DNA from: Rhodobacteraceae bacterium LNNU 3342
GTDB taxonomy: Bacteria > Pseudomonadota > Alphaproteobacteria > Rhodobacterales > Rhodobacteraceae
DNA length: 64,000 nt
Assembly: GCA_008711135.1 (NCBI GenBank)
Contig: VUAW01000007.1
Location: 1 to 64,000, forward strand
Reading direction: 5' to 3'
The notes beneath the pieces were generated by a model, which was given only the letters and a program-made list of their open reading frames with translations, did not search any database and was not told where the DNA came from. Below are positions 23,082 through 45,314 of the stretch, one piece after another (position 1 is the first letter of the stretch; each line of letters begins with the position of its first letter). A program made the translations under genes and the position numbers.

Positions 23082-24038
23082 ATGCACAGGAAACACCCCC
23101 AGCCCCGCCACCGGGGCCTGACCCGGTTGCTGACTCTTGCCGCGGCCGGCATCGCCGCCGCTGCCTACGTCCGGCACAAGACGAGTGAGGCGGAACTGCG
23201 GCACCCGCCGACCGGCGGCTTCGTGACGGTAGAGGGGGTTCGCCTTCATTATACCGAGGCGGGTTCTGGTCCGCCGCTCGTCCTGTTGCACGGCAATTCG
23301 ATGATGGGGCAGGATTTCCTGTTGAGCGATCTGGTTCGGCTTGCGGCGCGAAAGTACCGGGTTATCGTGATCGACCGCCCGGGCTATGGCTACAGCACCC
23401 GGCCCCGGCCGGAGTCCTGGGGGCCAGAGGCACAGGCCCGCGTCATCCATGCGGCGCTGCGCAGGATCGGGGTGGATCGCGCGCTGGTGCTGGGCCACAG
23501 CTGGGGGGCCATGGCGGCGGCGGCCTTGGCGCTGGACTATCCGCAGATGGTGCGCGGGCTGGTGCTGGAGGCAGGATATTTCTACCCCCGCCCCCGGCTG
23601 GAGATGCTGATGCGCATCCCCGAGGCCCTGCCGATGCTGGGTGATCTGACGCGGCGGACGTTCGTGCCGATCCTGCACCGGCTGGCCTGGCCGTTGTTGG
23701 CAAAGGTGCTGTTCGCCCCGGCAAAGGTGCCGCCGCATTTCTGGAAACTGCCGCCGTGGATGCTGATCCGGCCGGAACCGCTGCGGGCGGCCTCGACCGA
23801 AATGGCCGGCATCATGCTGGCGGCGGCGCGGCTGGCCCCGCGGTATCCGGCGCTTGACCTGCCGGTGGTGATCATCGCGGGCCGGGACGAGGCATTCATC
23901 TCCACTGAAAAGCACAGCGTGCGCCTTGCGCAGGAACTGCCCGACGTGGAACTGCGGCTTTTTGAAGGGGTGGGCCACATGGTCCACCACCTGATCCCCG
24001 AAGAGGTGATGGCGGCGATCCACGCCGCCGATCGCTAG
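23082..24038 (+). CDS. Membrane-anchored alpha/beta hydrolase
   Basis: The 318-residue protein has an N-terminal hydrophobic helix (LTRLLTLAAAGIAAAAYV) after a basic start, so it is probably anchored in or exported across the inner membrane. The fold shows the oxyanion HGNSMMG, the nucleophile LGHSWGA, the acid in IIAGRDEAF and the histidine in GVGHMVHHL. The lid region is rich in Pro and Arg. The start is the ATG preceded by GAGGAG; an earlier ATG would add 25 residues with no signal character. Substrate unknown. Its TAG stop overlaps the stop of the convergent treY gene within the tetranucleotide CTAG. Confidence 0.85.
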   Translation: MHRKHPQPRHRGLTRLLTLAAAGIAAAAYVRHKTSEAELRHPPTGGFVTVEGVRLHYTEAGSGPPLVLLHGNSMMGQDFLLSDLVRLAARKYRVIVIDRPGYGYSTRPRPESWGPEAQARVIHAALRRIGVDRALVLGHSWGAMAAAALALDYPQMVRGLVLEAGYFYPRPRLEMLMRIPEALPMLGDLTRRTFVPILHRLAWPLLAKVLFAPAKVPPHFWKLPPWMLIRPEPLRAASTEMAGIMLAAARLAPRYPALDLPVVIIAGRDEAFISTEKHSVRLAQELPDVELRLFEGVGHMVHHLIPEEVMAAIHAADR

Positions 24039-26647: not shown

Positions 26648-28440
26648 TCAGCATTCCTCGGGCGTTCCGCGGCAATGGCCGCCGTGATGTTGCGGTAAAG
26701 CGGCGACTGGGGAAGCTCCTCCAGCGTCAGGCGCAGCTTGCGTCGCCAGTTGGGATATTCGTCAACGGTGCTGGGCACGTTCACCGGCTCCAGCTCTGCC
26801 GTCAGATCCTCGAGCCTAGCGGCGAACAGCCGCGACGGCGTGCGCGCCAGGTGCCGGTGGGCGGCTACGGTCAGCGCGGGCGTGGCGTCTTCCGGGGTGG
26901 CGGCGCGCGCCTCGCCTTCGGTCAGCAGGCCGGCGGCGACCAGATCCTCCAGAAGCTGCACCCGTTCGACCTTGCGGGTGTCGTTCTGTTCCTCGGCGGC
27001 GCTGTCGCTGATGAAGCCGAAGCCCACCCGCAGCGCCACGTCGTCGCCCCGCCACCAGCCGCGGAAGGTGGGCAGATCATGGGTAGCTATACAGACCAGC
27101 GCCTCGCGCGGGAAATCCTCGGGTGGGATAAAGCCCTCGTCCGTCCGCTCGAACAGCAGGATGCGGTAGGACAGGATGCGACACGCCTCCATCACGTCCT
27201 GGAAGCCGTCGGGCACGTTGCCCAGATCCTCGCCGATGATGACGGTCTGGTTCTTGCGCGAGGCATCGGCCAGCGCCGTCAGCATGTCGCCGATCGGGTA
27301 GCGGGCATAGGTGCCCTCGGGCGCCTCTGCCCCTTCGGGGATCAGGAACAGTTGCCATAGCCCCATAGCGTGGTCGATCCGCAGCGCCCCGGCTTGGCGC
27401 GTGGCGCGTTCGATCAGCTTCTCGAACGGGGCGGCGTGCTGCTTGGCCATTTCCACTGGCGACAGCGGCGCAAGCCCCCAGTCCTGGCCCTGTTCGTTGA
27501 AGTAGTCGGGCGGCGCGCCTACCCGCACATCGGGCAGCACGATCGGGCTGCCCCAGCTTCCCGAACCATCGGCGGCCTCGCCTACCGCGAAGTCGAGGTA
27601 GAGGCCGATCTTCATTCCCGCCTCGGCGCAGGCGTCGCGGACTTGCGACAGCTGCAGATCGGCCAGATACTGAAGCCAGCAGTAGAAGCGCATTTCTTCC
27701 GCATGATCCTCGGCAAAGCGGCGGACGGCCTCGCCCTTGGCATCCTGCCATTCCTTTGGCCAGGCAAGCCACCCTGCCCCATGCCCTTCGGCGACCATAT
27801 GGGCCGAAACCGCATCAAAAAGCGCATGACGCCGCAGTTCATCGCCGCCGTTCTCGATGAAACGCTCCAGTTCCTCTGGCGCGCCTTTTTCCCAGATCTG
27901 GCGCAGCACCGGCAGCTTCAGCCCGGCGACGGCGGGATAATCGACAAGTTCGCTGTTCCGCGCGGCCTTTATCGCGGCGGGGTCGCACATGTCTTCCTCG
28001 AACCCCTCAAGCCGATCCACGGCGATGTAAAGCGGGTTCAGGAACCTGCGGTTCGACGGGGAGAACGGGCTGCACCGGGACGGGTCGGACAGGAACATCG
28101 CGTGCAGCGGGTTCAGGCCAAGGAAATCGGCCCCGGCCTCTGCGGCAAGCCCCACCAGGACCTCCAGATCGGCGAAATCCCCGATCCCCCAGTTGCGGCC
28201 GGACCGGACCTGGTAAAGCTGCAGGGCGATGCCCCAGAAGCGGCCATCGCCCGGCACATGGCAAACCGCGCCTTCAGGGGCCTCCAGCACCGGTTCCTTG
28301 TCCAGCGGCGGCAGGCGGTCGGCGCCAAAGGCTTTCAGCAGCTTTTCCAGTGTCTCCTTCGGCGCCTTGTGGGTCACGCCGTCGGCGCTTTCGTACTCTG
28401 GCTGGATGCCGTAGGCGCGCGCCCGCTGCTCAAGGTTCAT
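26644..28440 (-). CDS. malQ: 4-alpha-glucanotransferase MalQ (amylomaltase)
   Basis: MalQ transfers glucan segments between maltooligosaccharides, lengthening short chains and releasing glucose. The 598-residue GH77 protein shows NPLHAMFLSDPSRCSPFSPS, the nucleophile in ALRIDHAMGLWQL, the acid/base in IIGEDLGNVPDGF and the third carboxylate in ATHDLPTFRGWW. The region before the catalytic domain is short, as in many alphaproteobacterial MalQ proteins. Both ends overlap neighbours by 4 nt. In this operon it should remodel the chains that GlgX releases so that TreY can use them. Confidence 0.95.
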   Translation of the reverse strand: MNLEQRARAYGIQPEYESADGVTHKAPKETLEKLLKAFGADRLPPLDKEPVLEAPEGAVCHVPGDGRFWGIALQLYQVRSGRNWGIGDFADLEVLVGLAAEAGADFLGLNPLHAMFLSDPSRCSPFSPSNRRFLNPLYIAVDRLEGFEEDMCDPAAIKAARNSELVDYPAVAGLKLPVLRQIWEKGAPEELERFIENGGDELRRHALFDAVSAHMVAEGHGAGWLAWPKEWQDAKGEAVRRFAEDHAEEMRFYCWLQYLADLQLSQVRDACAEAGMKIGLYLDFAVGEAADGSGSWGSPIVLPDVRVGAPPDYFNEQGQDWGLAPLSPVEMAKQHAAPFEKLIERATRQAGALRIDHAMGLWQLFLIPEGAEAPEGTYARYPIGDMLTALADASRKNQTVIIGEDLGNVPDGFQDVMEACRILSYRILLFERTDEGFIPPEDFPREALVCIATHDLPTFRGWWRGDDVALRVGFGFISDSAAEEQNDTRKVERVQLLEDLVAAGLLTEGEARAATPEDATPALTVAAHRHLARTPSRLFAARLEDLTAELEPVNVPSTVDEYPNWRRKLRLTLEELPQSPLYRNITAAIAAERPRNAE

Positions 28441-30218
28441 GCGGCGGCCTCCAACAGGCAGGTGACGGTGAAGGGTGGCAGCGGCGCATCCAGCGGCGGG
28501 CCAGCGAGGATTTCGCCGCTGGCCGCGGGGGCATCCTGTGGGTGGTCGGTGAGGTTGGCGCGCATCCGCAGCACGGCGCCGTCAAGCTGCCAGTCCACCG
28601 CGATCAGCCCCTCGTCGGCATGGATCACGCGCCCGCCGTGCCCCGGCGCCCCGGCCAGATGCGGCACGATGCGCTGCGCGCGCACCTGCAGCAGGTGGCG
28701 GGTAAAGGCCAGCCAGTCGCGCCCCTCCTCGCCGTTCGCGCGGTCCCAGTCGATGCGCGACGCCTCGAAGGTCGACAGCGCGTTGGGGTCGGGGATCATG
28801 GCGCGCAGGGATTCGTTCTGGAATTCGCCAAAGGCGGCGAATTCGCGGCGGCGGCCTTCGCGCACTGCCTCGGCCAGGTCACCGTGGAAATCGGTGAAGA
28901 AGGCGAAGGGCCGCACCTCGCCCCACTCCTCGCCCATGAACATCAGCGGAATATGCGGCGACAGCAGGTGGATCGTCATCAGCGCCCGCACCATCGGCGC
29001 CGAGGACAGCGCCAGCAGCCGTTCGCCAAAGGCGCGGTTGCCGGTCTGGTCGTGGTTCTGCAGGAAATCCACGAAGGCCGTCGGCGGCAGATGCGCCGAA
29101 GGCTCGCCCCGCGGAGCGTCGGCATGAACCGAATGTTCGCCCTGCCAGATGAAGCCTTCGGCCAAAGCCCGGCCCAGCTTGCCCCAGTGGTCGCCGGTGA
29201 AGTCGGCGTAGTAGCCCTCGCTCTCTCCGGTCGCGATGACATGGGCGACGTTGTGGAAGTCGTCGTTCCATTCGCCGGAATAGAGCTTGATCCGCCCGTC
29301 GCCGTCGCGTTCGTGCAGGCGGGTGATGTTGCGGTTGTCCTCCGTCGTCAGGTGGATGTGCCTGCCGGGATTGGCCTCACGGATGCGCTGGGCGATTTCG
29401 ACTAGGATCTCTCGCTCGGACTTGGGGTCGCGGACGTGGTCAACGGCGTCGAGCCGCAGCCCGTCCAGGTGGAACTCCTCGATCCAGTAGAGCGCGTTCT
29501 CGATGAAATAGCGGCGCACGGGTTCGCGCTGATAGGCAATGGCCGCCCCCCAAGGCGTCTGCCGGTCGGGATCGAAGAAGTCGGGCGCATAGGCGTGCAG
29601 GTAGTTCCCTTCAGGCCCGAAGTGGTTGTAGACCACATCCAGCAGCACCATCAGCCCGTGCCGATGCGCGGCGTCGATGAAGGCCTTCATGTCGTCGGGC
29701 GTGCCATAGGCCGGGTGCGGCGTGTAGGGCAGAACCCCGTCATAGCCCCAGCCCCGGTTGCCCGCAAACTGGGCCACGGGCATGATCTCCACCGCCGTGA
29801 TGCCGGTTTCCACCAGGTGCGGAAGCTTTTCCATCGCGGCGCGGAAGGTACCTTCGGGCGTGAAGGTGCCCACGTGGATTTCCAGGATCACGGCCTCTTC
29901 CCAAGGCCGCCCCTCCCACGGGGACCAGTCAAAGGCACAAGGGTCAGTCACGCGCGAGGGGCCGTGCACGTCGCCCGCCTGCGCCCGCGCCGCCGGGTCC
30001 GGCACGACCTGCCCGTCCATGAGTACAAAGGCATAGTTGGTGCCTGCGCCCGCTTCGGGCACCATCAGCTCGAACCAGCCGTCGCCCTCGGCATGCATCG
30101 GGTGGTCTTGGGCGCCGATGCGCAGCCGCACCTGGTCCTGTCCCGGCGCCCAGAGCCGGAAGCGGGTCCCGCCTTCGACCAGCTCGGCGCCCCAGCTTTT
30201 GCGAAAGATCCGCTTCAT
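28437..30218 (-). CDS. treZ: Malto-oligosyltrehalose trehalohydrolase TreZ
   Basis: TreZ cuts free trehalose from maltooligosyl trehalose. The 593-residue enzyme has an N-terminal CBM48-like beta-domain (FRLWAPGQDQVRL), then a GH13 barrel with YNHFGPEGNYLHAYAPDFF, the nucleophile in GLRLDAVDHVRD, the acid/base in LTTEDNRNI and FLQNHDQTGNRA. The combination HFGPEGNYL plus NHDQ(T/I)GNRA separates TreZ from GlgB. It is translationally coupled to glgX upstream and malQ downstream. Confidence 0.95.
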   Translation of the reverse strand: MKRIFRKSWGAELVEGGTRFRLWAPGQDQVRLRIGAQDHPMHAEGDGWFELMVPEAGAGTNYAFVLMDGQVVPDPAARAQAGDVHGPSRVTDPCAFDWSPWEGRPWEEAVILEIHVGTFTPEGTFRAAMEKLPHLVETGITAVEIMPVAQFAGNRGWGYDGVLPYTPHPAYGTPDDMKAFIDAAHRHGLMVLLDVVYNHFGPEGNYLHAYAPDFFDPDRQTPWGAAIAYQREPVRRYFIENALYWIEEFHLDGLRLDAVDHVRDPKSEREILVEIAQRIREANPGRHIHLTTEDNRNITRLHERDGDGRIKLYSGEWNDDFHNVAHVIATGESEGYYADFTGDHWGKLGRALAEGFIWQGEHSVHADAPRGEPSAHLPPTAFVDFLQNHDQTGNRAFGERLLALSSAPMVRALMTIHLLSPHIPLMFMGEEWGEVRPFAFFTDFHGDLAEAVREGRRREFAAFGEFQNESLRAMIPDPNALSTFEASRIDWDRANGEEGRDWLAFTRHLLQVRAQRIVPHLAGAPGHGGRVIHADEGLIAVDWQLDGAVLRMRANLTDHPQDAPAASGEILAGPPLDAPLPPFTVTCLLEAAA

Positions 30219-32292
30219 TCCGCTGTATCCTCCAGAACCAGCAGCCCGCGTGGGGGCACTTCGATGGTCGCGCCGTCGACCCCGGGTGGCCGGCGCAGGA
30301 ACAGTTCGCCGGAATGGGTATCCGCGATCCTGGTCCAGCCCCCGGAGAACCGGGGCTGCGGAAGCTCGAACGGGACTGGTTCGAAATGGCTGTTGAACAG
30401 CACGAGGATCGCGGCCGTTTCGTTCGACAGCAGCATTCCCAACGTGCGGGCGTCCGGGTTGTGCCAGTCGTTATCCTCCATCGGCTGGCCGTCGGGGCGC
30501 AGCCAGTGGATGTCTACGGCCCGGGTGCTCTTGTGGATGAAGGCGCTGTGGTTGATCAGTTCACGCGATTTGCGCAGCTTGATCAGGCCAGCGACGAAGT
30601 CACGGAACCCGTCGTCCCGTGGGTCAAGGCCGCGCAGCTGAAGCCAGTTCATCTCTGCGTCCTGGCAATAGGCGTTGTTGTTGCCGCCCTGGCTGCGGCC
30701 GAGCTCGTCGCCCATCAGGATCATAGGCGTGCCCTGCGACAGCAGCAGCGTCGCCATCATGGCCCGGCGCATCTGGTCGCGCAGGTCCAGGATCTCGGGA
30801 TCATCCGTCGGCCCCTCGACCCCGCAGTTCCAGCTGCGGTTGTCGGAATGGCCGTCGCGGTTGTCTTCCTTGTTCGCCTCGTTGTGCTTGTCGTTGTAGG
30901 ACACAGTGTCCATCAGGGTGAAACCGTCATGGGCCGTGATGAAGTTCACGCTGGACCAGGGACGCCGGCCGCGGCGGTCGAACCGTTCCGCCGTCGCCAG
31001 CAGGCGTGAGGCCAACGGCGCCAGCATCGACTGGTCGCCCTTCCAGTAGGACCGCACCGTATCGCGATACTGGTCGTTCCATTCCGCCCAGCCGGGCGGA
31101 AAGTTACCTACCTGATAACCGTTCGTGCCGGTGTCCCAGGGTTCGGCGATCATCTTGACCTTGGACAGCACCGGGTCCTGCCGCACCGCATCAAGGAACG
31201 TGGCCGAGGGGCTGAACGTATCCCGCACCCGACCCAGCGACGACGCAAGGTCGAACCGGAAGCCGTCGACGTGGCAGGCCTCGACCCAGTAGCGGAGCGA
31301 ATCCATCACCATCTGCAGCACGCGCGGGTGCTGCAGGTTGACCGTGTTGCCGCAGCCGGTCGTGTCGAAGTAATAGCGCGGATCGTCGGCAAGGATGTAA
31401 TAGCTGGCATTGTCGATCCCCCGGAACGACAGCGTGGGACCCATCTGGTTGCCCTCGGCCGTGTGGTTGTAGACCACGTCAAGGATCACCTCGATCCCCG
31501 CCTCGTGCAGGCGGCGCACCATCAGCTTGAATTCATGCAGGTTGGCGCCCGGTGAGATGTAGCGCATGGCGGGGGCGAAGAAGCCGACCGTATTGTAGCC
31601 CCAGTAGTTCGTCAGCCCCTTTTCGATCAGGTAACGGTCGTCAAAGAACGCCTGCGTCGGCATCAGTTCAACAGCCGTCACGCCCAGCTTGACCAGGTGG
31701 TCGATAACCTTGGGGTCGGCCAGCCCGCCAAAGGTGCCGCGAAGGTTGTCGTTTATGTCCTCGTTCAGGGCGGTCATGCCCTTTACGTGGGCTTCATAGA
31801 TGATCGTGTCGGCCCAGGCAGTGTTGGGGCGAATGTCCGGACCCCAGGTCACGGCGGGATCGACCACGACGCATTTCGGCATGACAAAGGCGCTGTCGCG
31901 GCGGTCAAAGGAAAGGTCGTCGCGGTTGCTGCCGATCCGATAGCCGAACACTGCGTCGTGCCAGCGGATGTCGCCTTGAAGCTCCAGCGCATAGGGGTCG
32001 AGCACGAGCTTGTTCGGGTTGAACCGGTGCCCGTTTGCCGGGTCATAGGGCCCGTGCACGCGGTAGCCGTAAAGCTGCCCCGGGCGGACCTCGGGAAGAT
32101 AGCTGTGCCACACCTCGTCCGTATATTCCGGCAACGGGATGCGGGCGGTTTCGCGGCGGCCACGGCTGTCGAACAGACAAAGTTCGACCTTGGTCGCATG
32201 GGCGGAAAAGATGGCGAAGTTGGTACCGGAACCGTCCCATGTCGCGCCGAGGGTGGCCGGCGAGCCCTCGAGCACAGTGAAGCCGTGTTTGC

Positions 32293-32296
<4 letters not shown>
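30215..32296 (-). CDS. glgX: Glycogen debranching enzyme GlgX
   Basis: GlgX hydrolyses alpha-1,6 branches, preferring short outer chains trimmed by phosphorylase. The 693-residue isoamylase-type GH13 protein has an N-terminal CBM48 ([18 protein letters not shown]), the catalytic sites [22 protein letters not shown] and [11 protein letters not shown], and the GlgX-type [13 protein letters not shown]. Overlaps of 4 nt join it to glgB and treZ. No glycogen phosphorylase gene lies in this window. Within the operon GlgX opens branched glucan to linear substrate for MalQ and TreY. Confidence 0.96.
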
Positions 32297-34475
<2,179 letters not shown>

Positions 34476-34479
<4 letters not shown>

Positions 34480-37400
34480 GAGGTCTCCCGCTCCAGCAGG
34501 TCGAGGATCCCGCGCAGCGGAATTCCGATCCATGCCGGTCGATTGCCAAGTTCATATCCGGCCTCGTAAACCGCCTTCTGCAGAAGGAAGAGGTCCAAAA
34601 GCGCCGTGGTGGTCGTGTCGTCCGACGGAAGGTTCGCGGCCCCTTCGGCATGGCGGAAATAGGCGTCAAGGAAGTCGCGCGCGGTGGTCTGGCGCCAGCG
34701 TTCGACCCGGTCAAAAGCCGCGTCGGCGGTGGCGCCAAAGCTTTGCCGGTGCCGCGCGATTGCCGACAGTGCCGCATAGTCGAAGGACCGCAGCATCCCC
34801 GCCACATCCCGCAGAGGCGAGGATTTGGCCCGGCGTTCGGCAAGGCTCCGCGCCGGTTCGCCTTCAAAGTCGATGATCGCCACGTCGTTCTGGGCCAGAA
34901 GCACCTGCCCCAGGTGATAGTCGCCGTGGATCCGCGACAGCGCCCCCGACGGCGTCAGCTCGCCCACCTGCCGCAGCCGCGACAGAAGCTTCTCGCGCGC
35001 CTGCAGCAGGGCATCGGCCAGCGGCGCGGCCTCGGCCGGCAGTTGGCCGCGGGCCTGTTCCAGCCGGGTCAGCATCGCTTCGGCTTCGGCGGTGGCGCCT
35101 TCAGCCAACTCGCGCAGGTGATCGGCGGTCAGTTCCTCGATGGCAAAGGCCGGATCGTCTGTGGGGGTGGCAAGCGCCTTGTGCATCTGCGCCGTGCGCT
35201 GGCCCAGCAGGGAGCCGACGCTCAGCGGGAACTCGAACCCCTCGGGCTCATGCGATGTTTCCGAGGCCGAGGACCAGGTCTCGTTCTCGTTCAGCTCCAG
35301 CATCAGGCCGTCAAAGATGCCGGTCCAGGCGTCCCCGCGGTTGGCGACAAAGGCAAAGGCGGCGGCAAGCGTGGTCTTGCCCTCCTCACCCTCATGGGCA
35401 AGCTGGCCCAGATAGCGCGGGGTGTGGGCGAAATCCGCGACCTCGGTCAGGAAGCGCGCCACCTCGACATCCGGCTGTTCACCGGCCCGCAGGCGGCGGT
35501 ACAGCTTCAGGATCACCTTGTCGCTGAACGCGATGGAGATGTTGGACTGTTCCGCCCCCAGCTGCCGCGGCGCGCCCGGATCGGTCAGATTGCGCAGCGC
35601 CTCGGTACCCTCGAACGTAAGGGAGCCTTGTGTCTTGGCGTCGCGCATGCAGTCCAGAAGGATCTGCGGCAAGCGCTCGTCATAGGCGCCGTCGATCAGC
35701 GCCCCCAGCCGCGCGGTGTGGCGGATCTTGGCAAGGGTATAGGACAGCTTCGGCGCGCCCGGCCGCAGGTTCTCATCCCCCCAGCGCGAGGCGATGGGCA
35801 GGAAGTAGCTCTGTTCCTCTTCGCCCACCGTGACCTTTACGGAAACCAGCGCATGTTCCCCGTCCCCCAGTTCGCCCAGGTGGTTCATGCGGACCTGGCC
35901 GATCCGTTCGTCCTTGGCGGCGAACCAGCGCTGCAGCGGCAGCCACTGGGGCAGGACCTCGTTCTGGAACTGGGACCCCTCGCGCCCCTTGAGCGCGTTC
36001 TGGACCCGCCCGTTCCGGGTGGTCAGGGTGATGAACTCGGGCAGGATTTCGGGCAGCGCCTCGTGCCAGCTGGGCATGTCTTCTTCTCCACTCAGGAAGA
36101 ACCAGTAGAACCCGTAGGCCGGCAGCGTCAGCATGTAGGGCAGATCGCCCAGCGGCGGGAAGGCGGACCGGCCCGTCAGCTCGATCGGGACCTTGCCGCG
36201 ATGCGCTGACAGATCCAGCTCCACCGCCTGTGCACTGTCGGAAAGGTTTGCGACGCAAAGATAGGCCCGGCCTTCATGTTCACGGACATAGGCCAGGATC
36301 TTGCGGTTGCGCGGGTACAGCAGGGTCATCGTCCCGCGGCCAAAGGCCGGGTGCTGCTTGCGCACGGTGATCATCCGCCGCATCCAGTTCAGAAGCGAAG
36401 AAGGGTCGTCGGCCTGCGCCTCGACGTTGATGACCTGGTGGCCATAGATCGCGTCGATGATCACCGGCAGGTAAAGCTCCTGCGGCTTGGCGCGGGAAAA
36501 TCCGGCGTTGCGGTCGCCCGACCACTGCATCGGCGTGCGCACCCCATCGCGGTCGCCAAGGTAATAGTTGTCGCCCATGCCGATCTCGTCGCCATAATAG
36601 ATGATCGGCGTGCCCGGCATCGACAGCAGCATCGAGTTCAGAAGCTCGATCTTGCGGCGGTCGTTCTGCATCAATGGCGCAAGGCGGCGGCGGATGCCAA
36701 GGTTGATCCGCGCCCGCGTGTCGGAGGCATAGGTCTGCCAGAGGTAGTCGCGCTCCTCGGACGTGACCATTTCCAGCGTCAGTTCGTCATGGTTGCGCAG
36801 GAAGATGCCCCACTGGCACAGCTCCGGGATTTCCGGGGTCTGGCGAATGATGTCGGTGATCGGGTGCCGGTCAGCCTGCGCCAGTGCCATGTACATCCGC
36901 GGCATCAGCGGGAAGTGAAAGCCCATGTGGCATTCATCGCCGTCGCCGAAATACGGACGCGTATCCTCGGGCCACTGGTTCGCCTCGGCGAGCAACATGC
37001 GGTCAGGGAAATGCGCGTCCAGGTCGGCGCGGATCTTCTTCAGGACCTCGTGGGTTTCGGGCAGGTTTTCGTTGTTCGTGCCGTCGCGTTCCACCAGGTA
37101 CGGGATCGCGTCCAGCCGCAGCCCGTCCACCCCCATGTCCAGCCACATCCGCATGACCTTCAGGACTTCCTCCAGCACGCGGGGGTTGTCGAAGTTCAGG
37201 TCGGGCTGGTGCGAATAGAAGCGGTGCCAGTAATAGGCACCCGCCACCGGGTCCCAGGTCCAGTTCGACTTTTCCGTATCAAGGAAGATGATCCGAGTTT
37301 CCGGCCATTTTTCGTCCGTGTCGGACCAGACGTACCAGTCCCGCGCAGCCGAGCCGGGCTTGGCCCGCCGCGCCTTCTGGAACCACGGGTGCTGGTCAGA

Positions 37401-37775
37401 GGTGTGGTTAATGACCAGTTCGGTGATGACCCGGATGCCGCGGCGGTGCGCCTCGTTCACGAAGGCCTTGAAGTCCTTCATGTTCCCATAGGACGGGTTG
37501 ATGGAACGGTAGTCCGAGATGTCATACCCATCGTCACGCAGCGGCGACGGGTAGAAGGGCAACAGCCAGATCGCCGTCACCCCCAGTTCCTGGACATAAT
37601 CCAGCCGCTGCATCAGCCCGGCGAAATCGCCGATGCCGTCGCCGTTGGAATCCTGGAACGCCTTGATGTGCAGCTGGTAGATGATCGCGTCCTTGTACCA
37701 GTCCTTCTGCGACCGATCGACACCGGTGGCGACTGCGAAATTGGCGTTCTTGCGGGGCGGCATGGGAAGATTCAT
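34476..37775 (-). CDS. treS: Trehalose synthase-maltokinase fusion (TreS-Pep2/Mak)
   Basis: A 1099-residue two-enzyme protein. Residues ~25-570 are TreS, a GH13 isomerase of trehalose and maltose: [16 protein letters not shown], nucleophile in [10 protein letters not shown] (about D222), acid/base in [10 protein letters not shown] (about E264) and FLRNHDELT (about D330). Residues ~610-1099 are a maltokinase, which makes maltose 1-phosphate with ATP: the catalytic loop [10 protein letters not shown] (about residues 948-957) and the metal-binding [15 protein letters not shown] (about 968-982), in a kinase fold related to aminoglycoside phosphotransferases. The fusion channels trehalose to maltose 1-phosphate for GlgE, encoded immediately upstream. 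Its start shares one base with the glgE stop (TGATG). Confidence 0.97.
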
Positions 37776-39862
37776 CAGCGCGGGACTCCGGGCGCGAAAA
37801 GTTGCCAGATGGCATAGGGACGGGTTTCAGGGTCAAGTTCCAGCCAGTGGTCCTTGCCGTGCCAGGTGAAGCGGTTGCCGTTGATCAGGTCACGCACTTC
37901 GACCGAGGCGTCGTCGGGCAGGCCGAATTCCCACAGCGGCACCTCGAACCGGAAGCGCTGGACGTTGTGCGGATCAAGGTTGACGTGGAACAGCAGGAAG
38001 TCGTCGCCTGTCTGCTTGCCATAGGCGAGAACCTGGTCATTGGCTGCAAGGTAGAACTTGAGGTTGGTGAACTCCTGCAGTGCGGGATGTTCGCGGCGCA
38101 GCCGGTTGACCAGGCGGATGTCGTCCTTGATGTGCCCCGGCTTGTCCATGTCCCAGACGCGGATCTCGTATTTCTCGGAATTGAGGTATTCCTCCTTCCC
38201 GGGAACGGGTTCCGCCTCGCAGATCTCATAGCCGTTATAGACGCCGTAGTTGCCACCCAGCGTCGCCGCCAGCACCAGCCGGGTGCGGAAGCCGGGCCGC
38301 CCGCTGGTCTGCAGGAACTTCGGGTTGATGTCGGGCGTGTTGACGAAGAAGTTCGGGCGCATGTAGTGGCGCGCCTCGGTCTGGGTCAGTTCCGTGAGGT
38401 ATTCGGTCAGCTCCCACTTCTCGTTCCGCCAGGTGAAGTAGGAATAGGACTGAGAGAACCCGATCTTGGCCAGCCGCTTCATCACCTTGGGCCGGGTAAA
38501 GGCCTCAGCCAGGAAGATCACGTCCGGGTGCTTGGAGCGGACCTCGGCGATCATCCATTCCCAGAACGGGAAGGGCTTGGTGTGCGGGTTGTCCACGCGG
38601 AAGATCCGCACGCCGTGGCCTACCCAGAACAGCACGATGTCGCGCAGCGCGTACCACAGGTCCGGCAGCGCCCCGCGGTAGAAATGGACGTTGACGATGT
38701 CCTCGTATTTCTTGGGCGGGTTTTCAGCAAACTTGATGGTGCCATCGGGGCGCCAGTCGAACCACTCGGGGTGCTGCTTGATCCACGGATGGTCCGGCGA
38801 ACACTGGATGGCGAAGTCGAGCGCGATTTCCAACCCGTGGTCACGCGCTGCGTCCACCAGCCGGCGGAAGTCGTCGAAGGTGCCCAGTTCGGGATGGATG
38901 GCGTCATGCCCGCCCTCTTCCGAGCCGATCGCATAGGGGCTGCCGGGATCGTCCGGTTCTGGCGTCAGGCTGTTGTTGCGGCCCTTGCGGTTGGTCTTGC
39001 CGATCGGGTGGATCGGCGGGAAATACAGCACGTCAAAGCCCAGGTCGCGGACATAGGGAAGCCGCGCGATCACGTCGTCAAAGGTGCCATGCCGGTTCAC
39101 GTCGCCGGATTGCGACCGCGGCATCAATTCATACCAGGCGCTGAATTCAGCCGCGAGCCGGTCGGCAAAGACCGGCAGCACCTTGTAGGGCGTCAGGTTC
39201 GTGCGCGGCCCCACCCGCTGCATCAGGTCCACCACGTCGGGCGCGCCCAGCAGCGCGAAGCGGCGGGCGTCCACGTCAGCCTCGGCGCCGCCTTCCTTCT
39301 GGAGCGTCTTGTCATCCTTCAGCAGCGTCTTGAGCGCGGCCTTCTCCTCGCGTCCGCCGCGGCCTGCGGTGACCGCGGCTTCGATCAACTCGCGCCCTTC
39401 CTGCAGTTCAAGCGCAATGCGCTGGCCCGCTGCGTGCTTCTTGGTGACCTCCTTCCGCCAAGTGGCGAACAGGTCGCGCCAGGCGATGAAGCTCACCTCA
39501 TAATCGCCGGGGTCAGGGAAGGTCGCCGTCACAGTCCAGCGGTCGTTGATCAGGAACTCCATCGGCAGCTCGGTGAATTCGGCTGCGCCCTGGCGGCGAT
39601 AAAGGAAGGCTGCGTCAATGGAATCGTGGCCGTCGGAAAAGATGTCGGCCTCGATCTTGACCGGACGACCAGCCACGACCTTGGCGGCAAAGCGCCCGCC
39701 GTCGATCTCGATCGAGACGCCCTCGATCGCCAGCCGGTCTGCCGCGATGCCATGCAAGGCAGGATCGCGAACCACCTCGGCTGCCACGGCCTTGGGGGCG
39801 CGTCTGCGTTTGGGTGCGGTTTCCTTTTCGGTGGTCGTCTGCGCCGTTTCGGCAATATTCAT
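37775..39862 (-). CDS. glgE: Alpha-1,4-glucan:maltose-1-phosphate maltosyltransferase GlgE
   Basis: GlgE extends alpha-1,4-glucan by two glucose units per maltose 1-phosphate. The 695-residue GH13_3 protein has the N and S helical/beta domains, YFPPIHPIGKTNRKGRNN, the nucleophile in GVRIFRVDNPHTKPF (about D424), the acid/base in VIFLAEAFTRP (about E453) and the third carboxylate in FVNTPDINP (about D511). The first ~30 residues are a low-complexity, Ala/Lys/Arg-rich tail not expected in the fold. I chose the ATG of MNIAETAQTT, but its ribosome site is weak; an in-frame ATG 38 codons upstream (39976) is possible. It is the first gene of the operon. Confidence 0.93.
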   Translation of the reverse strand: MNIAETAQTTTEKETAPKRRRAPKAVAAEVVRDPALHGIAADRLAIEGVSIEIDGGRFAAKVVAGRPVKIEADIFSDGHDSIDAAFLYRRQGAAEFTELPMEFLINDRWTVTATFPDPGDYEVSFIAWRDLFATWRKEVTKKHAAGQRIALELQEGRELIEAAVTAGRGGREEKAALKTLLKDDKTLQKEGGAEADVDARRFALLGAPDVVDLMQRVGPRTNLTPYKVLPVFADRLAAEFSAWYELMPRSQSGDVNRHGTFDDVIARLPYVRDLGFDVLYFPPIHPIGKTNRKGRNNSLTPEPDDPGSPYAIGSEEGGHDAIHPELGTFDDFRRLVDAARDHGLEIALDFAIQCSPDHPWIKQHPEWFDWRPDGTIKFAENPPKKYEDIVNVHFYRGALPDLWYALRDIVLFWVGHGVRIFRVDNPHTKPFPFWEWMIAEVRSKHPDVIFLAEAFTRPKVMKRLAKIGFSQSYSYFTWRNEKWELTEYLTELTQTEARHYMRPNFFVNTPDINPKFLQTSGRPGFRTRLVLAATLGGNYGVYNGYEICEAEPVPGKEEYLNSEKYEIRVWDMDKPGHIKDDIRLVNRLRREHPALQEFTNLKFYLAANDQVLAYGKQTGDDFLLFHVNLDPHNVQRFRFEVPLWEFGLPDDASVEVRDLINGNRFTWHGKDHWLELDPETRPYAIWQLFAPGVPR

Positions 39863-40066
39863 TTCATTTTCTGGAGTCGCTGCTGACACCGGCTGTCCCC
39901 CCGTGGTTGCAGTCTGCTGGGTGAAACGGGCTGCTCGCGTAAAAGTTCCTTTGAAGGATGGGGTGATGCGGACCATCGGCAGGACTTGGTCACGCCCTTA
40001 TGAGTTGTCCCGGAGACCCTGTGCGAACAGGGTATCCGAATGCCAATAATGCCCAAGGACCTGCCG

Positions 40067-41071
40067 ATGACCCCGTCGTTCTACCTGCCCCGCCGGGGCT
40101 TCCTAGCCGCAGGCGCGGCTTTTTCCATCATCGGCACCGCCGCGGCGCAGCCTGCCAGATGGTCCGAGGTGCTGGACGCGGCGCGGCAGCACGAACAGTT
40201 CCGCGCGCTGGTCATCGCGCATCGCGGCGAAATCGCACTGGCCGAGGCGATCCGCGGCCCCGCGCCCGACCGGCCCGTGAACGTGAAGTCAGTGTCCAAG
40301 ACCATCGTCGCCGCCGTGCTGGGCGCGGCGATTGACCGCGACCATGTTCCGGGTGTCGATGCCACGCTGGGCGCAGTCGCCCCAAACCTGATCCCGGCGG
40401 GTGCCGATCCGCGCGTGCAGGGGATCACGCTGGGCGATCTTTGCACCATGCAGGCGGGGCTGGAGCGAACGTCGGGCCAGAACTATGGCGGCTGGGTGTC
40501 CAGCCGGAACTGGGTCGCCAATGCGCTGTCGCGGCCGATGGTAGCGGAACCCGGGCAACGAATGCTCTATTCCACCGGCAGCTTCCACGTGCTGGGGGCG
40601 GCGCTGGCCCGCGCCTCGGGCGCGAGCCTGCTGGAGATGACCCGGACCTGGATCGGCGGCCCCCTGAACATCGATGTTCCTGCCTGGACGCGCGACCCGC
40701 AGGGCTTTTACCTCGGCGGGAACGAAATGGCGCTGTCCCCGCTGGCCATGGTCCGCTTTGGCGAAATGTACCGCAAGGGCGGCGACGGGGTGCTGAGCGC
40801 GGATTGGGTGCGGGCGTCCTTCGTGCCGCGCACGCGGTCGCCGTTTTCGGGGCTGGACTACGGCTATGGCTGGTTCCTTGGCACCATGGGGGGCACGCGG
40901 GTGGCATTGGCCCGCGGCTATGGCGGACAGATCATCGCGGTCGCGCCGGACCTGGAACTGAGTGTCGCCATCACCTCGGACGCGACGCTGCCGGCCCGCA
41001 GCGGCGGCTATTTCGGGGACCTCCTTGCCTTGATCGAGCGCCGGATTCTGCCTGCCGCGCGCGCCGCCTGA
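40067..41071 (+). CDS. Exported serine hydrolase, beta-lactamase/class C fold
   Basis: The 334-residue protein starts with a twin-arginine-like signal (LPRRGFLAAGAAFSIIGTAAAQ), so it is likely exported; only RRGF of the Tat consensus is present. The active-site SxxK is KSVSKT (S75, K78) and the second motif is YST in LYSTGSFH, as in penicillin-binding-protein-like esterases and D-aminopeptidases. The typical C-terminal RGYGGQIIAVAPD replaces the KTG box (H/RGxGG form seen in 6-aminohexanoate hydrolase-like enzymes). The start has AAGGA 8 nt upstream; earlier ATGs do not. The substrate could be a peptide, ester or oligoamide. Confidence 0.85.
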   Translation: MTPSFYLPRRGFLAAGAAFSIIGTAAAQPARWSEVLDAARQHEQFRALVIAHRGEIALAEAIRGPAPDRPVNVKSVSKTIVAAVLGAAIDRDHVPGVDATLGAVAPNLIPAGADPRVQGITLGDLCTMQAGLERTSGQNYGGWVSSRNWVANALSRPMVAEPGQRMLYSTGSFHVLGAALARASGASLLEMTRTWIGGPLNIDVPAWTRDPQGFYLGGNEMALSPLAMVRFGEMYRKGGDGVLSADWVRASFVPRTRSPFSGLDYGYGWFLGTMGGTRVALARGYGGQIIAVAPDLELSVAITSDATLPARSGGYFGDLLALIERRILPAARAA

Positions 41072-41139
41072 CGGTTCTCCCTCGTCCGGGCCGCGCGTGG
41101 CACTATCTTTCGCGTCGGAAACAGGGACGAGGGGACGGG

Positions 41140-42243
41140 ATGCCAGATAGTGGAATGATGCCGCAGGCGCAGGGTTCGACCGTGATGCCCGGCGCCGCCG
41201 TGCTGTCGGGGCTGGCCACCGCTCTTCCGCCGCACCGCCTTGACCAGAGCGACGTGATCGAGAACGCCCGCCGCATCTTCGGCGCCCGCACCGGTCTGTT
41301 CGAGACGCTGGAACCCGTCTTCACCAATGCCGAGATCGACAGCCGCTGGTCCTGCATGCCGCTGGAGTGGTTTTCGGAACAAACGGACATGCCGGAAAAG
41401 ACGGTGCTGTACCTTCGCCATGCGACCGATCTGGCCGAGCGGGCGGCCCTGGCGGCGCTGGATGACGCCGGTCTCGCGCCCGAGGACATCGACACGCTGG
41501 TCTTTGTCAGCTCCACGGGCATCTCTACCCCCTCGATCGAGGCGCGTCTGATGAACCGGATCGGCTTTCGCTCCGACGTGGCGCGGCTGCCGATCTTTGG
41601 CCTTGGCTGCGCGGGCGGGGCGCTGGGCCTCAGCCGCGCGACGCAGATGGTGGCGGGTCGGCCCGGCGCGCGCTGCCTGCTGATCGTGGTGGAGCTTTGC
41701 ACGCTGGCCTTTCGGCACGACAGCCTGACCAAAAGCAACCTTGTCGCCACTGCGCTGTTCGGCGACGGCGCGGCGGCGGCGGTGCTGACGGGCGGCACCG
41801 GGAGCGGCGGCTTTGCACGGCTGGGGGCGGCCGGCGAACATCTTTGGCCCGACACGTTGAACGTCATGGGATGGAAGCTCGACCCCGAGGGGTTCGAGGT
41901 CATCTTTCACCGAGACATCCCGCGCATCGTGGCGGGCGAATTCCGCGAGGCGCTGGACGCATTCCTTGACCGCACGGGGACGGCACCGGGGTCGATTGCC
42001 CGCCCCTGCTGCCACCCCGGCGGCGCGCGTGTTCTTGACGCGCTGGAAGATGTCTTCGGCCTGCCCGACCGCGGCCTTGACGCCGAACGCGAGGTTCTGC
42101 GCCGTCACGGCAACATGTCGGCGCCGACGGTGCTGTTCGTGCTGGACGAGCTCCGCCGCCAAGGGGCACAAGGGCGTCACCTGCTGACCGCGCTGGGCCC
42201 AGGGTTCACCGGCGCCTTTCAACTGCTGGAGATGGACGCATGA
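41140..42243 (+). CDS. Type III polyketide synthase (chalcone/stilbene synthase family)
   Basis: The 367-residue iterative polyketide synthase condenses malonyl-CoA units on an acyl-CoA starter. The Cys-His-Asn triad is visible: C157 in FGLGCAGGALG, H292 in CCHPGGARVLD and N325 in RHGNMSAPT. Bacterial relatives next to a membrane methyltransferase (BpsA-BpsB in Bacillus, SrsA-SrsB in Streptomyces) make alkylpyrones and alkylresorcinols from long fatty acyl chains. The next gene is such a methyltransferase, overlapping by 4 nt. The start is an ATG after GAGGGGA. A longer upstream open frame covers the preceding gene and is a shadow. Product chain length and ring type are not predictable here. 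Confidence 0.94.
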   Translation: MPDSGMMPQAQGSTVMPGAAVLSGLATALPPHRLDQSDVIENARRIFGARTGLFETLEPVFTNAEIDSRWSCMPLEWFSEQTDMPEKTVLYLRHATDLAERAALAALDDAGLAPEDIDTLVFVSSTGISTPSIEARLMNRIGFRSDVARLPIFGLGCAGGALGLSRATQMVAGRPGARCLLIVVELCTLAFRHDSLTKSNLVATALFGDGAAAAVLTGGTGSGGFARLGAAGEHLWPDTLNVMGWKLDPEGFEVIFHRDIPRIVAGEFREALDAFLDRTGTAPGSIARPCCHPGGARVLDALEDVFGLPDRGLDAEREVLRRHGNMSAPTVLFVLDELRRQGAQGRHLLTALGPGFTGAFQLLEMDA

Positions 42244-42743
42244 CCCTTGGCTGGGCCTACCTTCTGATCGGGCTGATCGTGGTGCAGCGGCTGGCGGAAC
42301 TGGTGCTGGCGCGGCGCAACACGCAGCGGCTGCTGGCCCGCGGCGCCGAGGAACACGGCCGCCGCCACTACCCGCTGTTCATCCTGCTGCACGGCAGCTG
42401 GCTGATCGCGATGGCGCTGCTGACGGACCCTTCGCCGCCGCTGAACCCATGGCTGCTGGCGGGTTTTGCAATGCTGTTCGTCGCCCGGATCTGGGTGATC
42501 GCGACGCTGGGCGAATACTGGACCACCCGGATCATCAGCCTGCCGCAGGCGCCGCTGGTCCGCCGCGGGCCGTTCCGGTTTCTGCGCCACCCGAACTACA
42601 CGGTCGTCGCGCTGGAAATCCCGTTGGTGCCCGCGCTTCTGGGGCTGCATGTGCTGGGGGTGGTGTTCGGGCTCCTGAACCTCGCGCTGCTGACCTGGCG
42701 CATCCGGGTCGAGAACGCAGCCCTTGCCCCCCGCGAAGGGTGA
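42240..42743 (+). CDS. ICMT-family membrane methyltransferase, partner of the type III PKS
   Basis: The 167-residue integral membrane protein has hydrophobic helices near residues 5-22, 44-62, 68-90 and 122-152 and the ICMT-type motif VRRGPFRFLRHPNYTVVALE, which binds S-adenosylmethionine and the membrane substrate. Its ATG overlaps the PKS stop (ATGA), so they are coupled. By analogy with BpsB/SrsB it should O-methylate the lipid polyketide, not prenylated protein. It is intact, unlike the ICMT-like gene at the left edge. Confidence 0.88.
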   Translation: MTLGWAYLLIGLIVVQRLAELVLARRNTQRLLARGAEEHGRRHYPLFILLHGSWLIAMALLTDPSPPLNPWLLAGFAMLFVARIWVIATLGEYWTTRIISLPQAPLVRRGPFRFLRHPNYTVVALEIPLVPALLGLHVLGVVFGLLNLALLTWRIRVENAALAPREG

Positions 42744-42786
42744 CAGGCGGCGCACCTGCCGCTAGGCTTGGCCAAAGGAGGTGCGG

Positions 42787-43368
42787 ATGACGGGGGACGA
42801 ACTTGCACGCGGGGTTTACCTGGGGCTGCTGCTTGCGGTGGTAGCCGGGTATTTCATCGTGCGGAACCGCCGGCAGCTGGGCGAGATGGCGCAGCTTGCG
42901 GCGATCTGGCTGCTTATCATCATCGGGTTGGCGGCGGGTTGGTCGCTTTGGTCCGACATCCGCATGGACCGGATGCCGCGCCAGTCGGTCATCACCGGTG
43001 CCGCGCGGGTAGAGGTTCCGCGCGCCCCGGATGGTCATTATTACCTGACCGTGACCCTGAACGGGACGCCGGTGCGCTTTGTCGTGGATACCGGCGCGAC
43101 GGATGTGGTGCTGACAGCACAAGACGCCACGCGGATCGGGTTCGATCCTGCGGACCTACCCTACCTTGGCCAGGCGCGGACTGCGAACGGACTTGTCCGT
43201 ACGGCCCGCATCCGCATTGACCGCGTCGAACTGGGCGAATTCCTTGACCACGACCTGCCGGTCTGGGTGAACGAGGGGCAGATGGAAACGTCGCTGCTTG
43301 GGATGACCTATCTGAACCGCTTTGCCCGGATCGAGATCGCGGGCGACCGGATGATCTTCAGCCGCTAA
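42787..43368 (+). CDS. Membrane-anchored retropepsin-like aspartic protease (TIGR02281-like)
   Basis: The 193-residue protein has two N-terminal transmembrane helices (residues ~8-25 and ~38-55) and a single retropepsin domain with VRFVVDTGATDVVLT (catalytic DTGA, about residues 98-112) and the second-half LLGMTYLNRFARIEIAGDRM. It would need to form a dimer to be active, as in retroviral proteases and rickettsial APRc. The domain is predicted to face the periplasm. The start is an ATG 5 nt after AAAGGAGG; the frame also opens at a GTG two codons earlier. Function unknown. It may be co-transcribed with the polyketide genes (43-nt gap). Confidence 0.88.
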   Translation: MTGDELARGVYLGLLLAVVAGYFIVRNRRQLGEMAQLAAIWLLIIIGLAAGWSLWSDIRMDRMPRQSVITGAARVEVPRAPDGHYYLTVTLNGTPVRFVVDTGATDVVLTAQDATRIGFDPADLPYLGQARTANGLVRTARIRIDRVELGEFLDHDLPVWVNEGQMETSLLGMTYLNRFARIEIAGDRMIFSR

Positions 43369-43383
43369 GGCAACACGCGAAGA

Positions 43384-43854
43384 TCAGCCTGCAGCGCCTT
43401 GGCTTTCCGCCTTTTTCTGCCAGCGACCGGATTCCTCGCTCCAGTACTGGGCGGGAACGGCGGCGGCGGTCAGCGCGCGCCACTGGCCTCGGGCGTGATC
43501 GACCGCCGCCGGGTCGTTGCCGTCGAACAGGATCCACGCACGTTCCAGTTCGCGCGCTTCCTGCGGTGAAACCTCAGCCCCGTCGATGGACATCAGGCAG
43601 CGGGCTCCGTTTGGCATGTCGCTGCCTGTCGTCAGCAGGATCGGCTGGTCCGCATCATGCGGCCCGCCCGCGATGCCATGCGGCAGGAACCCGTCGTCAG
43701 ACCCCAGCCACAGCCGCTGGTCCAGCCATTCAAGCCGGCCGGCAGATGGCGCACGAAGCACCACCCGCCAGCCGGTAGCCAGCGCCTTTTCCAGCAGCAT
43801 CGGCACCACGTTTTCCAGCGGTGACTGCGTCAGATGATAGAAAAGCGCGGGCAT
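43384..43854 (-). CDS. holC: DNA polymerase III chi subunit HolC
   Basis: The 156-residue protein has the chi-subunit pattern: FYHLTQSPLENVVPMLLEKAL near the N-terminus, WRVVLRAPS, LDQRLWLGSDDGFLPHG and the later WILFDGNDPAAVDHAR. In the replisome chi contacts single-strand DNA-binding protein. The start shares one base with the pepA stop, the common pepA-holC arrangement. It converges with the retropepsin gene, 15 nt apart. Confidence 0.95.
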   Translation of the reverse strand: MPALFYHLTQSPLENVVPMLLEKALATGWRVVLRAPSAGRLEWLDQRLWLGSDDGFLPHGIAGGPHDADQPILLTTGSDMPNGARCLMSIDGAEVSPQEARELERAWILFDGNDPAAVDHARGQWRALTAAAVPAQYWSEESGRWQKKAESQGAAG

Positions 43855-45314
43855 CAGCCCCCGGCTTTCTCGAACTTGTCGCGGATCAGCCGGTCAAGCG
43901 CCCGCACCCCCCAGCCCGTCGCGCCCTTGGGGGCAAAGGTGCTGTCAGAGGACAGGAGCGCCACCCCGGCGATATCAAGATGGATCCAGGGCGTTTCCGG
44001 CTTCACGAAGCGCTGCAGGAACTGCGCTGCGGTGATCGAGCCCGCAGGCCGCCCGCCTACGTTCTTCATGTCCGCGATCCGCGACTTCAGCATCTTGTCA
44101 TAGGCGTCGCCCAGCGGCATCCGCCATGCCCCCTCACCCTCGGCCGCGGCGGCGGCAAGGAAGGCGTTGCACAGCCCGTCGTTGTTGGAAAATACGCCCG
44201 CGTTTTCATGGCCAAGCCCGATGATGATCGCGCCGGTCAGCGTCGCAAGGTCGATCATGCCGGTCGGTTTGAAGCGTTCCTGCGCGTACCACATGACATC
44301 GGCGAGCACGAGCCGCCCTTCCGCGTCGGTGTTGATCACCTCGATCGTGTCGCCCTTCATGGACCGCACGACATCACCCGGGCGCTGCGCACGGCCGTCG
44401 GGCATGTTTTCAACCAGCCCCACCAGCCCCACGACATTGGCCTTGGCCTTGCGCAGCGCCAGCGCCCGCATGACACCTGCGACGACGCCCGCGCCGCCCA
44501 TGTCCATGGTCATCTCCTCCATCCCCGCCGCAGGCTTGATGGAGATGCCGCCGCTGTCGAACACGACGCCCTTGCCGATCAACGCGAGCGGGGCTTCATC
44601 CCCGCCGCCCTGCCACTGCATGACGACGACCTTGGTGGGGCTTTCCGAACCCTGCCCCACGCCCAGCAGCGCGCGCATGCCAAGACGTTCCAGCTCCGGC
44701 TCTTCAAGGATCTCCACCTCCAGCCCGAGTTCCTGCATTGCAGCAAGGCGGGCGGCGAAATCATTGGTGGTCAGTATGTTGGCAGGTTCGTTCACCAGGT
44801 CGCGGGTGAAGAACACAGCCTCGGCCAGGGCGGCCATTGGTTGCGCGGCGGCGGCGACCTGTTCGGGGTTGTCGGCCATCAGCGTGACGGTGCCGAAGGA
44901 CTTTTTTTCGCCTGTCTTGTGGTCGCTGAACTCATAGGCCCGCAGCGCCAGCCCATAGGCGATGTCGGCGGCACGGGGGTGGTTTCCGGCAACCACCAGC
45001 ACCGGTGCGGCGCCCATGGTGCGGCCGATGGTGGCCCCGGCGCGGCGGGCGTCATCGGCCCCTGCCCGACGCGGAAGGTTCACCACCTGCACCGCTTCGG
45101 CCTGCATGTTGGCGGGAAAGGCCAGTTCCATCGCATCCCCGGCGCGGCCCTTCTGCCAGGCCTCTGCCGCGAACAACCGGTCCACGGCGCCGCGTGTGGC
45201 ACGGTTGACGCGCCGCAGCGCCGCGCTTTCGGACAGAACCACGACACGGCCCTGGAACCCGGCCAGCGCGTCAAGATCGGTCGCGGTGAAGTTGATGGTG
45301 ACAGGTGTGGTCAT
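43854..45314 (-). CDS. pepA: Leucyl aminopeptidase PepA (M17)
   Basis: This cytosolic two-metal aminopeptidase forms hexamers and removes N-terminal residues from peptides; in enterobacteria PepA also binds DNA. The 486-residue protein has the N-terminal macro-like domain and the M17 catalytic half: LIGKGVVFDSGGISIKPA with the metal-binding Lys and Asp, MTMDMGGAG, and the signature NTDAEGRLVLAD. The start is an ATG after AGGGGCGAAGA. It is divergent from lptF, as in many proteobacteria, and coupled to holC. Confidence 0.97.
   Translation of the reverse strand: MTTPVTINFTATDLDALAGFQGRVVVLSESAALRRVNRATRGAVDRLFAAEAWQKGRAGDAMELAFPANMQAEAVQVVNLPRRAGADDARRAGATIGRTMGAAPVLVVAGNHPRAADIAYGLALRAYEFSDHKTGEKKSFGTVTLMADNPEQVAAAAQPMAALAEAVFFTRDLVNEPANILTTNDFAARLAAMQELGLEVEILEEPELERLGMRALLGVGQGSESPTKVVVMQWQGGGDEAPLALIGKGVVFDSGGISIKPAAGMEEMTMDMGGAGVVAGVMRALALRKAKANVVGLVGLVENMPDGRAQRPGDVVRSMKGDTIEVINTDAEGRLVLADVMWYAQERFKPTGMIDLATLTGAIIIGLGHENAGVFSNNDGLCNAFLAAAAAEGEGAWRMPLGDAYDKMLKSRIADMKNVGGRPAGSITAAQFLQRFVKPETPWIHLDIAGVALLSSDSTFAPKGATGWGVRALDRLIRDKFEKAGG

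Follow-up and report, generated by a model that had tools for sequence, protein, structure and literature searches.

Genes of the locus

The present analysis deals with a type III polyketide synthase (PKS) gene and the methyltransferase (MT) gene overlapping its end, both located in a 64,000-nucleotide stretch of contig VUAW01000007.1 (hereafter the window) from Rhodobacteraceae bacterium LNNU 3342. An initial annotation, made from the letters alone, had described four genes on one strand with short gaps, namely a Tat-like exported SxxK hydrolase, the PKS, an ICMT-family MT and a membrane retropepsin, and this order was confirmed by coordinates and profile matches as follows:

40067..41071, + strand: Tat-like exported SxxK serine hydrolase; Beta-lactamase PF00144, 84.2 bits (cut-off 27)
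41140..42243, + strand: type III PKS, 367 aa; Chal_sti_synt N 97.2 and C 63 bits (cut-off 27)
42240..42743, + strand: ICMT-family integral membrane MT, 167 aa; PF04140, 79.8 bits (cut-off 24)
42781 (GTG) or 42787 (ATG) to 43368, + strand: membrane retropepsin; TIGR02281, 116.2 bits (cut-off 57.95)

The PKS and MT genes overlap by 4 bases (ATGA, stop of the one and start of the other), whereas gaps of 68 nt and of 37 or 43 nt separate hydrolase from PKS and MT from retropepsin respectively. The hydrolase carries S75-V-S-K78 and RRGFL at residue 9, the retropepsin DTGA at residue 101. A search of the genome with the CHS (chalcone synthase) C-terminal family returned a single match, the window PKS. 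For this protein an alternative start at M16 (41185) is possible, since residues 1-15 were modelled with a predicted local distance difference test score (pLDDT) below 50.

Conservation of the PKS-MT pair

Conservation was followed in 127 PKS loci: relatives contributed 10, the family 9 and the class 28, while a further 80 are titled genome contigs, being the best 80 of 585; the set represents the better matches, with distant relatives under-sampled, and includes 5 identical PKS pairs among its sequences. Flanks vary in length; in 57 of the 127 each flank extends for 5 kb or more. An MT lies directly downstream of the PKS in 122 of these loci, the arrangement of BpsA-BpsB type in which an ICMT-family MT immediately follows the PKS, and is absent beside it in five, one of which (L201) stops at a contig edge. 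An adjacency that recurs on this scale is not a matter of chance. Considering possible starts only and counting the window, an in-frame MT start giving the same 4-base overlap with the PKS stop is available in 85 of 123 pairs, and an overlapping start of any kind in 105.

Some loci depart from this pattern. The Rhizobium loci L104, L107 and L110 have a PKS of the window's kind, and no adjacent MT was detected there. Around positions 1010-1701 of L017 (genome G018) lies a decayed PKS-MT remnant, consisting only of a PKS end of 66 residues plus MT matches split between two frames. In L037 (G212), positions 1501-2520 hold an otherwise good homologue of the PKS that is interrupted by in-frame TAG at matched residues 34 and 49 and adjoins an MT match; it may be a pseudogene, a sequencing error or a case of recoding.

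A third conserved neighbour was sought and rejected by two approaches. In a Pfam tally of downstream open reading frames (131 of 144 candidates, downstream side only; 13, chiefly in the final loci, were excluded because of their size; the frames were called mechanically and many are spurious), MFS_1 occurred in 13 and every other family in at most 5. All-against-all clustering of crude gene calls from 81 stretches placed neighbours other than PKS and MT in at most 11 of them, save for one 14-locus cluster whose displayed member is an opposite-strand reading over the MT.

Distribution and origin of the PKS

The PKS was found in 12 of 198 genomes of the family and, at E 1e-30, in 64 of 289 genomes of the class, the window's genome being counted in both. 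Among these 64, 57 are of the window's kind (E <1e-57) and the other seven are 32-39% identical. The closest titled matches, among the best 80 of 585, are two Kaistia and one Bosea metagenome-assembled genome at 59-60% identity, whereas identity within the window's own family is 46-52%.

The PKS tree also conflicts with the family. In a careful tree of 59 chosen sequences, the window PKS groups with Kaistia and Bosea with a support of 100/99.7, and constraining it to a clade with 12 sequences of the family lowers the log-likelihood by 155 units and is rejected (approximately unbiased test, p-AU 1.3e-6). The tested family group was partly picked after a tree had been seen, as L038, a family member falling outside the family clade in a quick tree, was omitted from it. 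That quick tree, built from 118 of the 128 sequences after removal of one broken, one end-cut and eight presumed near-duplicates of kept rows, gave the window, Kaistia and Bosea a Shimodaira-Hasegawa-like approximate likelihood ratio (SH-aLRT) of 94 (not starred), and in it the Paracoccus and Sulfitobacter PKSs cluster with window-family sequences. Because the PKS groups with Kaistia and Bosea and the family clade is rejected, the trees suggest that the PKS-MT cassette was likely gained horizontally. Against such a gain, an ancient duplication followed by loss could have produced the same conflict.

One contig, L109, is labelled Candidatus Kuenenia (Planctomycetota). Its PKS is identical to that of the alphaproteobacterial L210, so its label or binning is doubtful.

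Active site of the PKS and fold of both proteins

The catalytic triad named by the initial annotation, C157/H292/N325, proved exact to the residue number and is invariant in all 128 PKS sequences (123 distinct), constituting the Cys-His-Asn triad within a CHS fold that characterizes type III PKSs. The best fold match of the PKS model is Mycobacterium tuberculosis PKS11 (4jat; Z 49.5, root-mean-square deviation (rmsd) 1.6, 344 residues aligned), followed by CylI (Z 47.1, rmsd 1.8, 346 aligned). PKS11 (4jao, 4jat) is also the closest solved relative by sequence, with 206 bits and 33-34% identity to the window PKS in the structural alignment. The starter of PKS11 is palmitoyl- or stearoyl-CoA (PMC6274091; here, as for every article cited below, the statement reflects excerpts of the source).

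Two further positions bear on the choice of product. C187 sits 30 residues past the catalytic Cys, the same spacing as C205 of PKS18, and this position is Cys in 125 of the 128 sequences. W245 is as invariant as the triad (128 of 128). When aligned via locus L013, it corresponds to Gly in CHS and to Leu in PKS18, and when aligned directly, to Leu in 2-pyrone synthase; we take this position to be that of CHS residue 256.

The MT was confirmed as the ICMT-family partner whose gene overlaps that of the PKS. The top fold match of its AlphaFold2 model (pLDDT 96) is Ma-ICMT (4a2n; rmsd 3.1, 161 aligned) with a Z of 14.8, which is barely above the value of about 14 that helical proteins can reach through a common arrangement. 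Further matches are 8xku_G (Z 11.8), ICMT 5v7p (11.8), along with 5vg9, and steroid 5-alpha-reductase (8.7), the next row being at 3.5, while the best Foldseek hit is 5v7p (E 0.17, probability 0.99). A sequence search of the PDB with the MT gave 0 matches. Because this fold match combines with the PF04140 score, the MT is accepted as a predicted kin of the ICMT family.

Proposed product and alternative readings

The initial annotation had read the PKS and its ICMT-type partner as a pair of the kind making methylated alkylpyrones or alkylresorcinols, and this reading is supported by the profiles, the PKS11 and Ma-ICMT matches, the pairing in 122 of 127 loci and the Bacillus precedent. We therefore hold it to be probable, with some reserve, that the pair makes a methylated fatty polyketide, either alkylresorcinol or alkylpyrone, without involvement of the neighbouring genes; this estimate spans both ring types. 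The PKS would take a long-chain acyl starter, add malonyl-type units and cyclise the chain to an alkylresorcinol, which is somewhat preferred, or to an alkyl-alpha-pyrone. The membrane-embedded MT would then methylate the PKS product using S-adenosylmethionine, most simply at a ring hydroxyl and thus presumably by O- rather than C-methylation, giving a membrane-soluble methoxy lipid as the end product. An MT acting on a fatty PKS product in the membrane is the simplest reading of the pair. The genes, their catalytic residues, the PKS fold, the recurrent pairing, the conflict of the tree with the family and the lack of the hydrolases in related loci are observed, whereas we infer chain length, ring type, methylation site and membrane role.

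The preference for resorcinol comes from W245. Among known enzymes, ArsB with W281 forms resorcinols and ArsC with Gly (G284) at that position forms pyrones (PMC6274091, PMC9927152), and the equivalence of W245 with these residues would tilt the ring assignment toward resorcinol. A number of points weigh against this reading. W245 is taken as the equivalent of W281/G284 through an indirect mapping via CHS, PKS18 and 2-pyrone synthase. PKS11, an alpha-pyrone synthase, has Trp at the W245 position, and Leu occupies it in CylI, whose solved structure holds a resorcinol product. The window's nearest relatives, L041-L043, carry Ser in place of C187. The two characterised alphaproteobacterial enzymes covered by a review, which may or may not be of the window's PKS kind, produced mainly pyrones: RePKS made pyrones, and RpsA, using methylmalonyl extenders, made dimethylpyrones and/or resorcylic acids (PMC6274091). 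Regarding the MT, C-methylation was reported for a planctomycete cluster (PMC10896814), and the window protein scores 19.7 bits against the 160 of the NCBIfam true-ICMT equivalog NF040696. Since PKS11 shares the Trp and CylI lacks it, W245 isn't decisive for ring type and was rejected as proof of resorcinol; the ring type is left undecided with a slight resorcinol lean because PKS11, CylI, RePKS and RpsA counter W245.

The same enzymes give some credit to the idea that the product is, as in Bacillus, an O-methylated alkylpyrone that modulates development or serves as a signal. This reading overlaps the proposed one and differs from it in ring and role. The closest solved enzyme and both RePKS and RpsA made pyrones (PMC6274091), and alkylpyrones delay sporulation of B. 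subtilis (PMC5686519), but W245, present in every sequence, leans the other way, and we regard this modulator as possible and clearly the lesser prospect.

A broader proposal would extend the preferred methylated fatty polyketide to a class-wide alphaproteobacterial pathway, in which the PKS-MT pair is handed on as a self-contained cassette for an undescribed methoxy-alkylresorcinol membrane lipid, perhaps protective or redox-active under drought or low oxygen. We consider it speculative and rather unlikely as a whole; if true, a methoxy-alkylresorcinol cassette would here lie beside a trehalose/glycogen operon. Linkage to such genes as a general feature was rejected, an amylase-type gene lying near the PKS in 1 of 127 loci (L063).

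Slightly less likely again would be the conversion of a methylated resorcinol into a polyketide quinone (PkQ) by an unlinked flavin monooxygenase, for respiratory use as in Actinobacteria. PKS-methyltransferase-oxidoreductase operons yield PkQ in Streptomyces and Mycobacterium (PMC9927152), clusters of Acetobacteraceae combine PKS, methyltransferase and a flavin adenine dinucleotide (FAD) monooxygenase (PMC8776678), and the genome has 19 FAD_binding_3 matches. None of these matches was found on the window's contig, however, and five FAD_binding_3 queries from the window genome, which find one another in 17 of 20 cross pairs, had no match in any of the 127 loci, flanks being short in many. The window thus differs from the three-gene PkQ operon in having no linked flavin oxidoreductase found, and a quinone product would therefore need an unlinked enzyme.

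Flanking genes and chromosomal site

The initial annotation had also drawn the two hydrolases into the locus, and this part was not borne out. All 127 PKS loci lack a match to the SxxK hydrolase and to the retropepsin (E 1e-4, within available flanks), so that a conserved linkage as expected of a four-gene envelope locus was not seen in this set. Each of the 25 window-family genomes examined, its own counted, has a match to the retropepsin, those of G008 and G017 being at only 28-30% identity. The context of the retropepsin was analysed, across stretches of up to 16.6 kb, for 15 of the 24 matching family relatives. In 12 of the 15, most of them without a PKS, the retropepsin lies within 0.9 kb of holC-pepA, with lptF next in 11 and one stopping at a contig edge; of the remaining three, L184 has holC-pepA 5 kb away and two have no holC-pepA seen. 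The retropepsin thus belongs to a chromosomal retropepsin-holC-pepA block, which in the window is present on one side of the site:

43384..45314, - strand: holC and pepA, on the side of the site that is conserved in relatives (Pfam/NCBIfam matches, synteny)
24035..39976, - strand: treY-malQ-treZ-glgX-glgB-treS/mak-glgE, seven overlapping genes on the site's other side (Pfam)

Beyond holC-pepA, to the right of the segment, lies lptF (Pfam), followed by genes that we presume, partly by synteny with relatives, to be lptG, lptD and surA. The names treY, treZ and glgX are likewise our assumption, laid over general amylase-type Pfam matches. The trehalose/glycogen run includes a TreS-maltokinase fusion and GlgE.

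In the relatives, a MarC-cluster gene stands just upstream of the retropepsin (13 of 15), and an ABC-type gene (abcF) precedes the marC position (12 of 15), both Pfam names being taken from one relative, L173. In the window, hydrolase, PKS and MT occupy the marC/abcF place. A MarC gene was not found in the window genome (completeness 100, 62 contigs) by a search that was positive in 10 of 14 controls. As for the hydrolase, strong homologues (E <1e-70) exist in 5 of 40 relatives, and the 15-17 kb around these five contain none of the 11 other window genes queried.

Hydrolase and retropepsin were consequently rejected as pathway members, being placed elsewhere in relatives and in none of the PKS loci, and they are probably mere neighbours outside the PKS-MT cassette. 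A single envelope-lipid locus comprising the four genes, in which the hydrolases act with the lipid, is very improbable: the shared strand and short gaps speak for it, as does weakly the lack of a terminator-like site from PKS to retropepsin (the scan finds 1 site against a shuffle mean of 2.3), but the absence from PKS loci, including the 57 with 5 kb or more in each flank, and the attachment of the retropepsin to holC-pepA speak against it. Promoter and terminator consensus counts were at or below shuffle level throughout, and co-transcription of the four genes in this one strain is possible.

Comparison with known systems

The kind of system is already known, and the window pair is one more PKS-MT unit amid unrelated genes. 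The locus itself is ordinary, the PKS-MT pair being common among Alphaproteobacteria (57 of 289 sampled genomes). With the hydrolases removed from the hypothesis, a clean two-gene question remains. No paper assigning the product of the pair in Alphaproteobacteria was found in the open-access literature searched.

Type III PKS clusters are listed within the window's bacterial group for Roseibaca (PMC10584327) and Paracoccus (PMC8273931); in contrast to the present pair, the word methyltransferase is absent from both main texts and no product is assigned in the relevant passages. The hierridin-like clusters of Planctomycetes and Cyanobacteria share an alkylresorcinol-type PKS and a methyltransferase with the window (PMC10896814, PMC8086630) and differ in being mostly of three genes, with an oxidoreductase. 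Actinobacterial pkqABC also combines a PKS with a methyltransferase and has Trp at the ArsB 281 position, whereas its linked oxidoreductase has no counterpart found at the window (PMC9927152). Nearer in taxonomy, the type-3 PKS clusters of Acetobacteraceae are alphaproteobacterial and pair PKS with methyltransferase, but all have a FAD monooxygenase, none of which was found linked at the window; the authors call the metabolite of these Rhodospirillales/Acetobacteraceae clusters unknown (PMC8776678). For the PKS itself, M. tuberculosis PKS11 shares the Cys and Trp positions.

The Bacillus systems offer the same two-gene architecture. BpsA-BpsB belongs to another phylum and is likened to the window pair by description. 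In B. subtilis, bpsA-bpsB form a two-gene operon in which a type III PKS is paired with an enzyme that methylates, yielding triketide pyrones and minor resorcinols, with a 4-O-methylated pyrone identified (PMC5686519), and a Bacillus type III PKS cluster carries, as does the window, an annotated ICMT (PMC11008187).

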